Positions 723 to 2,885 of a stretch of 48,553 nt of DNA are shown piece by piece (within the stretch, counting starts at the first letter, position 1; each line of letters opens with the position of its first letter). The translations under genes were made by a program, and so were the position numbers. The stretch is taken from contig JAJYTE010000020.1 in the NCBI GenBank assembly GCA_021793215.1, positions 1 through 48,553 of the forward strand, in the 5' to 3' direction. The notes beneath the pieces were generated by a model, which was not told the DNA's origin, searched no databases, and saw only the letters and a list, made by a program, of their open reading frames with translations. Source of the stretch: Bacillota bacterium (GTDB lineage: Bacteria > Bacillota > Sulfobacillia > JAJZYS01 > JAJYTV01).

Positions 723-737
723 AGAGGAGGACTGGCG

Positions 738-1339
738 TTGTCCGATGCCCTGCCCTGCCGCCCCGTGACCCGTACACCCGCGGACAAAACGTGAAGGCCA
801 TCCAGAGCTCCCTGACGGGGCACGGCTTCGACTTCGCTCCGATCGACGGGATCTTCGGACCGCTCACGGCGGACGCGGTCGAGCGCTTTAAGCAGTGGCG
901 CGGCATCACACCCGTGAACCCGTACGTCGACCTGCCGATCTACTACGCGCTCGGCGTGCGCTGCGTCTCGACCCCGGAGCTGACGGAGCAGCTCGACTAC
1001 AACAATCCGCTCTACCAGATCATCGATACCGCGTGATTCGACGGCAAGAAGTACTGGGCCTACGGCCAGAACATCCCCTTGCCGATCGACCCGACCAAAC
1101 CCAAGGTCGCGCAGGAGTACGTCATCGCGTACTACGTGAGCCCGCACGGAATTCCGCAGTCGGTGCCCCTGCAGCTGAACATCTACGACGCGATCCCCGG
1201 GATGCCGGAGTACAGCCCGATCTGGCACCTCAACTACGTGATCGTGCCGAGGGACTACTTGCCGAACACGCTGCGCTCGGCGGAGCAGGCCAAGTGCTCC
1301 GGCTACTCGATCGTCAGCAGCGACACCTACGTCAACTGA
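738..1339 (+). pseudogene. Peptidoglycan-binding-domain protein, reading frame broken twice
   Basis: A TTG at 738 has an excellent GAGAGGAGG ribosome site, but its frame ends after 18 codons. The coding frame that follows gives RGQNVKAIQSSLTGHGF and DGIFGPLTADAVERFK, a PG_binding_1 repeat, then a region homologous to the preceding gene. Two lesions are visible. First, a direct repeat CTGCCCTGCC at about 752-761: removing one 5-base copy joins the TTG start to the domain frame (start LSDALPPRDPYTRGQ). Second, an in-frame TGA at 1034-1036, after which the same frame continues 101 codons to 1339. The upstream paralogue has Arg at the residue aligned with this TGA (IRFEEERFF against A-stop-FDGKKYW), so a CGA-to-TGA change is the simplest explanation. 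Restored, the protein would be about 199 residues. Probably a pseudogene, or a real gene carrying sequence errors. Confidence 0.6.
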
Positions 1340-1405: not shown

Positions 1406-1448
1406 AACACACCGGGAGCCCCGCAGTGCGCGGGGCTCCCGGTGTGTT
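1406..1448. terminator. Perfect 19-bp inverted repeat, bidirectional terminator between convergent genes
   Basis: Bases 1406-1424 and 1430-1448 are exact reverse complements, with a 5-base loop. The hairpin lies between the end of the plus-strand paralogue pair (1339) and the stop codon of the minus-strand selenoprotein gene (1448-1450), which it touches. There is only a short T-tract on either side, so termination in both directions is inferred from position and stem strength. Confidence 0.75.
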
Positions 1449-1768
1449 CACTTCTCTTCGCGGGGCGGCTTCCACCAGTAGTGGCGCCGCTCCGATGCGA
1501 GCTTGGCCCGGTCAGCCATCGCAAGCGCGACGCCAGCCCCGACGGAACCGGCCATCTGCACCGCCTCCGCGATCTCCTCCTCGGTCGCACCCAGTTTCTT
1601 CGCACCTGCGAAGTGGGAGACCGCTCAGGGCTCGCAGTGGTAGGCGAGCACCAGCGCCAAATGGATCAGTTCCTTCGTCTTCGGGTCGAGCGCGCCTTCG
1701 GCGTGCGTCTCCCGGAAGTAGGAGACAAAGTTGGGATTGCCGCTGAAGTAGGTCGGCAACTCGGGCAT
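1448..1768 (-). CDS. AhpD/carboxymuconolactone decarboxylase-family selenoprotein, Sec at residue 48 (UGA at 1625-1627)
   Basis: A 106-residue protein starting at ATG 1768, with GAAGGAGG 7 bases upstream. Reading through one in-frame TGA gives a typical small CMD/AhpD domain: LxPKTKELIHLALVLAYHC, then E-P-[TGA]-AVSHFAGAKKLGATEEEI. In this family the active site is CxxCxxxH, used as a peroxidatic/thiol redox pair. Here Cys45 and His52 are present and the TGA sits exactly at the second cysteine, giving Cys-x-x-Sec. The domain continues without other stops to TGA 1448. A SECIS-like hairpin follows the UGA (separate entry). The gene is 59 bases downstream of ilvA on the same strand, so it may be read from the T-box promoter. 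AhpD-like selenoproteins have been described from metagenomes. The substrate is unknown. The alternative is a plain TGC-to-TGA mutation or error, which the hairpin geometry argues against. Standard gene calling would miss this gene. Confidence 0.82.
1590..1617 (-). promoter_or_regulatory. Bacterial SECIS-like hairpin downstream of the UGA codon
   Basis: In mRNA sense, CCCA + CUUCGC form the left arm, AGGU the loop, and GCGAAG + (bulged AAAC) + UGGG the right arm. Counting the U of UGA as 1, the loop guanines fall at positions 22 and 23 inside GCAGGU (19-24), and there is a U at 17. From memory of the E. coli fdhF SECIS, its GCAGGU and bulged U17 occupy the same positions; these are the SelB contacts. 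A 6-bp perfect upper stem with a 4-base G-containing apical loop at this distance is what bacterial SelB elements require. The hairpin is also fully inside coding sequence, as expected in bacteria. Not seen: any selA, selB or selC gene in this window. Confidence 0.75.
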
Positions 1769-1827
1769 GCGATCGCCTCCTTCGCGCCAGGGTTCTCCTC
1801 AGCCTTCCGTACACCTGCCGATTCGGT

Positions 1828-2885
1828 TCAGGCGCCCGCCGCTCTGCCGTCCGTCACCGGTGCGCTCCGTGCACCAATTTCAGCAACCTCTCCCTCCCGG
1901 GACGGGGGCGCTGCCAGCAGTCGCTGCACGGACGCCGGCAGAACGCGCCCGACGTCGATGTTCCCGCCTGTCACGAGGACTGCCACCTTGCCGGAGCGCG
2001 CACCGACCGCCCGCGCCAGAACGGCTGCCAGCCCCACCGCACCGGCTCCTTCGACCAACATCTTCGCGCGTTCCAAAAGGAGCGAGATGGCATCCGCGAT
2101 CTTCGCCTCGTCCACGGTGATGAGGTCGTCAAGATATCGCTGCAGGAGGGGGAACACGATCTCTCCGGGACGTCCCACCGCAAGGCCGTCGGCCAAGGTG
2201 GGGGTCACCGGGCGTTCGACACGTCGGCCGCATCCCCAGGAGTCGGCCATCGCCGGCGCATGGGCGGCCTGGACGCCGACCACCCGCGTGCTCGGCGAGA
2301 GAGACTTGACCACGAACCCGATGCCGGCCGCGAGTCCACCCCCGCCGACCGGCACCACCACGGTGTCCAATGCTTGGAGCTCCGTGAGCACCTCGAGGGC
2401 GATCGTACCCTGGCCGGCGATCACGTCGTAGTCGTCGAAGGGGTGCACGAACGTGGCCCCGAGCTCTGCCTGCAGCCTGCGCGCCTCCGCGTAGGCCTCG
2501 TCGTAGTTCTCGCCGTGCAGCACCACCCGCGCGCCGTAGCCCTCCGTGGCCAGCTGCTTGGCCCTCGGAGCGCTGGCCGGCATCACGACGGTCGCAGGAA
2601 CTCCGAAGACGCGCGCGGCGAACGCGACGCCCTGGGCGTGGTTGCCGGCCGAGGAGGCGATCACGCCCCGGCTGCGGCACTCTGGTGCGAGGTTCGCGAT
2701 GCAGTTGTAGGCCCCGCGGACCTTGAATGACCCCGTCTTCTGCTCGTTCTCGAGCTTGAGGTATACCTCGGCGCCGCCCAGTGCGCTGAACGTCTCCGAG
2801 TAGGCGAGGCGCGTGCAGTGCACTACCGGTGCGAGCACGCGCTCGGCGGCCCTGACGGACTCCAGTGTCAGTGTCGAATCCCCAA
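1828..2885 (-). CDS. ilvA: Threonine dehydratase (threonine ammonia-lyase), T-box regulated
   Basis: PLP enzyme of fold type II that deaminates threonine to 2-oxobutanoate, the entry step to isoleucine. Visible motifs: LKLENEQKTGSFKVRGA with the PLP lysine, SAGNHAQGVAFAA, the phosphate-binding VPVGGGGLAAG, and a C-terminal VTGGNIDVG. At about 336-352 residues it lacks the regulatory ACT domain of long biosynthetic forms. The start is odd. GTG 2838 opens the frame, but conserved N-terminal sequence (LTLESVRAAERVLAPVVH) continues in frame upstream without any ATG/GTG/TTG. GGAGG is followed at normal spacing by TTG 2885, which is one base out of frame. Adding one G to the GGGG at 2880-2883 would fuse that TTG to the conserved N-terminus. 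I therefore give 2885 as the likely true start with a one-base discrepancy. The T-box makes an isoleucine-biosynthetic role more likely than catabolism. Confidence 0.85.

Follow-up and report, generated by a model that had tools for sequence, protein, structure and literature searches.

A predicted CMD/AhpD-fold selenoprotein gene with a conserved in-frame UGA in the bacterial class that holds Sulfobacillus

CMD/AhpD-like selenoproteins in which selenocysteine (Sec) replaces the second cysteine of a CxxC site, giving CxxU, have been described since 2005. The relevant passages of the Sargasso Sea report of that year (PMC1088965) describe CMD-domain/AhpD-like CxxU proteins, and those of the GOS report of 2008 (PMC2398784) describe AhpD-like 2 / CMD CxxU proteins; this agrees with the original prediction for the present locus, which had noted AhpD-like selenoproteins in metagenomes. 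The year 2005 also brought the prediction of a CMD selenoprotein in Geobacter (PMC1242214), PMC13188914 lists CMD-like CxxU proteins, and CMD/AhpD-like CxxU selenoproteins are tabulated in reviews of 2022 and 2026. Among proteins with cysteine at this place is RclX, which Pseudomonas aeruginosa requires to resist HOCl; an AhpD-like nature has been argued for it, with four of the five catalytic residues of Mycobacterium tuberculosis AhpD and a proposed hexameric assembly (PMC7950407). The gene at 1448-1768 described here adds another member to this kind of selenoprotein, and it leaves the known mechanism of Sec insertion unchanged. We put the probability that it is a genuine selenoprotein gene, with Sec predicted at UGA codon 48, at about 95%, an estimate that draws, computationally, on the open reading frame before and after the UGA, the Sec-decoding machinery, conservation of the UGA, the hairpin that follows it, Sec/Cys exchange among homologues and the protein fold.

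The gene lies near one end of the 48,553-nucleotide stretch of DNA that was analysed (the window), and its features are collected in Table 1. Its minus-strand translation is MPELPTYFSGNPNFVSYFRETHAEGALDPKTKELIHLALVLAYHCEP-U-AVSHFAGAKKLGATEEEIAEAVQMAGSVGAGVALAMADRAKLASERRHYWWKPPREEK. The one in-frame TGA, in the context ...YHCEP-U-AVSHFAGAKK..., occupies the place of the second cysteine of a CxxC-xxx-H site. The domain is otherwise intact, as had been claimed from the sequence: the protein scores 58.7 bits against the Pfam CMD family PF02627 (gathering cut-off, 23) and 47.1 against the AhpD core domain TIGR00778 (curated cut-off, 27.8). The perfect hairpin directly beyond the gene has a folding energy of -44 kcal/mol with its flanks, and only its plus strand scored in the terminator scan. 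The window also holds a peptidoglycan-binding-domain open reading frame (731-1339, plus strand) that is broken by an in-frame TGA at 1034-1036. That TGA has neither a cysteine context nor a hairpin after it (fold z about 0), so a nonsense mutation or an error is a likelier explanation for it than Sec, and the frame can serve as a local negative control for the Sec call.

Table 1. Coordinates of the features discussed (window positions unless a contig is named)
Feature	Position	Strand	Remarks
CMD/AhpD-fold selenoprotein gene (predicted)	1448..1768	-	106 aa, UGA as predicted Sec48; open reading frame and 11 relatives
Start codon ATG of CMD gene	1766-1768	-	
Terminal stop TGA of CMD gene	1448-1450	-	
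In-frame TGA (UGA), predicted Sec48 of C45-E-P-U48-xxx-H52	1625..1627	-	TGA in 12/12 aligned genes
Cys45 of CxxU motif, proposed resolving Cys	1634..1636	-	invariant in alignment A1
His52, proton-relay His of AhpD-type site	1613..1615	-	invariant in A1
Glu33, proton-relay Glu of AhpD-type site	1670..1672	-	10/11 in A1
Shine-Dalgarno AAGGAGG, 7 nt 5' of ATG	1776..1782	-	sequence
SECIS core hairpin, 6-bp stem CUUCGC/GCGAAG, loop AGGU (1604-1607)	1598..1613	-	loop starts 17 nt past UGA
Optional outer extension CCCA (1614-1617)/UGGG (1590-1593)	1590..1617	-	weakly conserved
19-bp perfect hairpin directly 3' of CMD gene stop, between convergent genes	1406..1448	.	terminator scan, fold
Threonine ammonia-lyase gene, upstream neighbour	1828..2838	-	TIGR01127, over cut-off; 59-nt gap, same strand
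Second CMD selenoprotein candidate (NCDYU-VGSH)	L002:1345-1725 = G000:C66:3145-3525	+	TGA at active-site position and hairpin
Third CMD selenoprotein candidate (SCRYU-LSSH)	L124:785-1315 = G000:C50:785-1315	+	TGA at active-site position
Two selD genes	L020, L021 = G000:C79:50489-51406 and C69:9179-10102		one in-frame TGA each

A search of 200 related genomes recovered relatives in 11 genomes, which belong to three further families of the class; these genes are about 57-80% identical over the aligned stretch and carry TGA at the same codon. In all 12 aligned genes the TGA is retained while the surrounding codons vary both in amino acid and synonymously, and the in-frame UGA is flanked on both sides by protein-level conservation in several genomes; alignment A1 keeps Cys45, Sec48 and His52 without exception and Glu33 in 10 of 11 sequences. 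These data bear on the possibility of a recent pseudogene whose TGA arose by nonsense mutation or sequencing error, for which one could cite the draft state of the assembly and the occurrence of stray TGAs nearby, as in the peptidoglycan-binding-domain frame. The same codon recurs in 11 independent genomes, one of them the finished Sulfobacillus acidophilus DSM 10332 genome, and protein-level conservation continues in the frame beyond it, which already refutes a pseudogene or an error; we give this explanation almost no credence. One copy, in genome G137 (L038:1353-1665, contig G137:C122), is truly defective: two nucleotides are deleted at the UGA and the frame is shifted, in a genome that has kept selB. 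This copy counts against the selenoprotein reading and would fit the pseudogene explanation; it may be a recent gene loss or an assembly error. It had been considered as a Cys form and was rejected as such because of the frameshifting deletion.

The UGA column also shows the exchange expected of a Sec codon, TGA in close relatives and, among roughly 50 more distant homologues, Cys in most of those whose CxxC-xxx-H motif is intact, in line with the original suggestion that this column be read in homologues. When 154 genomes of the class were searched with a profile, none yielded an intact subfamily gene in which Cys or another stop occupied the UGA column. In a tree of 56 rows, 13 of the 14 Sec rows group together, with few columns, long branches and poor resolution. 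One remote row (L110, G050:C278) reads CEP-TGA but has Cys at the place where His is expected. The gene is missing from the nine other searched genomes of the source organism's own family and so is patchy and dispensable, a point against the selenoprotein reading, and no relative of it was found in viral contigs.

The class of the source organism in the genome tree is the one that holds Sulfobacillus, and the S. acidophilus DSM 10332 orthologue lies on a plasmid of that finished genome (genome set entry G045 is identical to plasmid CP003180.1 over 12.3 kb). It is deposited as Sulac_3558 (AEW06991.1; CP003180.1:25727-25873, L098:3501-3647), a ‘hypothetical protein’ whose 147-base coding sequence stops at the UGA, that is, a 48-codon product truncated at the predicted Sec codon. 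This annotation would suit an alternative in which the UGA ends translation on purpose to give a 47-residue peptide, with the downstream sequence a relic or a separately started reading frame. We consider such a purposeful stop very improbable, given that the downstream half is conserved in amino acid sequence and includes, besides His52, the second half of the CMD domain, that the synonymous sites of the hairpin stem are frozen (see below), and that the genome encodes the Sec machinery. Selenoproteins therefore appear to have been overlooked in a bacterial class that includes bioleaching organisms, to the point that the orthologue on the plasmid of a type strain stands as a truncated 48-codon hypothetical protein.

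The RNA that follows the UGA contains, as had been claimed, a perfect 6-bp stem closed by the loop AGGU, and across the alignment of 12 genes all of its cells (100%) are paired; two stem pairs of the most divergent gene have changed in a compensatory manner, from U-A to C-G and from C-G to U-A. The outer CCCA/UGGG clamp that had been described with it is present in the window and fares less well in the relatives, with 75% of cells paired and one pair failing in 6 of 12 sequences. Counting from the U of the UGA, GCAGGU falls at nucleotides 19-24 and a U at nucleotide 17, exactly as first reported. For the E. coli fdhF SECIS, with which the hairpin had been compared, we take GCAGGU to lie at nucleotides 19-24 from the UGA and U17 to be bulged below the apical stem. 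The comparison holds for the position of GCAGGU and for the letters of the loop; it fails for the bulge, in that the present element has a four-base loop on an unbroken stem and U17 is predicted to pair (U17-A28), so the fdhF-type bulged U17 is absent here.

The 42 nt after the UGA fold with a minimum free energy of -17.6 kcal/mol, and the shuffle z obtained for this single gene is a modest -1.9, a point against the selenoprotein reading. Because the bases of the stem also encode protein, synonymous sites provide a sharper test. At the stem codons (+4, +5, +6, +8 and +9 from the UGA), sequences that share a residue had a mean codon identity of 0.96, compared with 0.38 at 47 other codons, and random draws of five columns reached the synonymous identity of the stem at a frequency of 1e-5; at the GGN codon of the loop, all four third bases are in use across the aligned genes. 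The premise that a TGA at this residue followed by a SECIS goes beyond chance is thus upheld by the TGA kept in 11 relatives and by the frozen stem. The bSECIS rules of PMC13188914 ask for a loop of 3-9 nt with G in its first two positions, a stem of 4-16 bp, a distance of 16-37 nt from the UGA and a free energy of -7.5 kcal/mol or below, and the hairpin satisfies all of them (4-nt loop AGGU, 6-bp stem, 17 nt, -17.6 kcal/mol).

Sec insertion depends on dedicated machinery, and the absence of selB or selC had been named as the finding that would overturn the prediction. Searched with family models, the source genome (2.74 Mb, 97.7% complete) contains selA (525 bits), selB (330 bits summed over stretches in one frame; cut-off, 242), tRNA-Sec (Rfam RF01852, 69.3 bits; anticodon TCA by ARAGORN) and two copies of selD (344 bits). 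With all four components at hand, including selB and tRNA-Sec, refutation on this ground is excluded. Each selD copy itself has an in-frame TGA, which suggests that both selenophosphate synthetases may be selenoproteins too. Among the 25 genomes checked, selB exceeded the cut-off in 24, including every carrier of a close TGA relative. Readthrough of the UGA across this gene family would also be expected if the codon were recoded as another amino acid, whether as Trp by suppression or through a genome-wide change of code. TGA, however, serves as the terminal stop of the CMD gene (1448) and also of the threonine ammonia-lyase gene (1828), the homologues have Cys rather than Trp in the column, and tRNA-Sec and SelB are encoded in the genome; recoding to anything other than Sec is thus exceedingly unlikely. 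Together with the machinery, the TGA shared with 11 relatives, the Cys/TGA column and agreement with the SECIS rules support the original proposal of an unannotated AhpD/CMD selenoprotein.

The same genome encodes two further candidate CMD selenoproteins (Table 1). The gene on contig C66 adjoins what appears by eye to be a branched-chain aminotransferase-like gene; its type has TGA, with a CUUUCGC-GUU-GCGAAAG-like hairpin, in seven genomes of the class and Cys in one (G146), an apparent Sec/Cys exchange inside one orthologous group. The candidate on C50 has the hairpin CCGCCUU-GUU-AAGGCGG past its UGA, and the TGA is also found in the same-genus genomes G002 and G003. The organism therefore has three candidate CMD selenoprotein genes, and the gene at 1448-1768 offers a clean, testable prediction of a Sec-containing AhpD-like enzyme.

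The upstream neighbour is a threonine ammonia-lyase gene. The scan found no terminator-like site between the two genes, which, with the 59-nt gap on the same strand, makes local cotranscription plausible and leaves that part of a proposed coexpression with threonine dehydratase standing. The wider association does not stand, for tblastn of this protein and six other window proteins against the 6-12 kb around 12 related genes gave no match. The pairing is therefore local, a functional link is unsupported beyond the source genome, and threonine ammonia-lyase was rejected as a conserved partner since none of the seven window neighbours lies near a relative. A HAD-type hydrolase gene follows the CMD gene in several relatives of one family (f10), and no conserved neighbour common to all loci points to a specific function, which also counts against the reading.

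In the proposed mechanism, SelB carrying Sec-tRNA(Sec) would bind the hairpin lying 17 nt beyond the UGA, and UGA 48 would be read as Sec during translation. The product would be a 106-residue CMD-fold protein with the active site Cys45-x-x-Sec48-xxx-His52 / Glu33, in which, by analogy with AhpD/RclX-type relatives, Sec may attack the oxidant and Cys45 resolve the oxidised Sec. An AlphaFold2 model (mean pLDDT, 85.6) has RclX (7y4r) and 3bey as its best PDB matches, and Glu33, Cys45, Sec48 and His52 correspond to positions 118, 130, 133 and 137 of the AhpD profile TIGR00777 (offset from the aligned start). Sec48 takes the place of the second Cys of AhpD, which we take to be its peroxide-attacking Cys; AhpD His132 presumably stands where the present protein has Pro47. 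On the analogy with these relatives, the protein rather likely acts as an AhpD-like peroxidase or disulfide oxidoreductase whose Sec is oxidised and then resolved by Cys45. Possibly, on the other hand, the selenoprotein is not a peroxidase at all and serves instead as a thiol-disulfide switch, a chaperone-like protein or a sensor of the CMD fold. CMD proteins have varied roles, the loci are without conserved peroxide-defence neighbours, and in several relatives the gene is followed by the HAD-type hydrolase; against this, the Glu-Cys-Sec-His set fits the AhpD relay, and the nearest match in both fold and sequence is RclX, with its role in HOCl resistance in P. aeruginosa (PMC7950407). Returning to the peroxidase-like reading, we tentatively raise the idea that these genes form a Sec-only orthologous CMD subfamily with no functional Cys version, distributed patchily, including on a plasmid, among bacteria of the Sulfobacillus class in which several CMD selenoproteins coexist. 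If this is correct, selenium would be required for the reaction, and selenoprotein genes would move between Sec-decoding hosts.

The best solved relatives by sequence and fold are RclX of P. aeruginosa (7y4r), which is about 38% identical to the protein and is under RclR regulation, and lpg0406 (5dik); both have CxxC, with Cys where Sec is predicted here. M. tuberculosis AhpD (TIGR00777; 1knc, 1gu9) shares the CMD/AhpD fold, and its residues align with Glu33, Cys45, Sec48 and His52, whereas the present protein is shorter, has Sec in place of Cys and scores 18.1 bits against the AhpD model (cut-off, 191.95). The GSU3128 family (seleno)protein (NF041047) is likewise a short CMD protein for which CxxU is known, and a score of 42 bits against a cut-off of 110 places our protein outside that family; the AhpD-related selenoprotein models TIGR01926 and NF041238 gave no match at E <= 0.01. 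Since the protein stays below the curated cut-off of each specific NCBIfam AhpD/CMD selenoprotein model with which it was compared, it represents an unnamed orthologous group of a known kind. The available passages of PMC1088965, PMC2398784 and PMC13188914 do not single out this group. As far as those passages go, it shares with the Sargasso and GOS proteins the PF02627 domain, the CxxU site with Sec for the second Cys and a SECIS after the UGA; those proteins are mostly known from marine metagenome reads, whereas the group described here is found in the Sulfobacillus class and on a plasmid.
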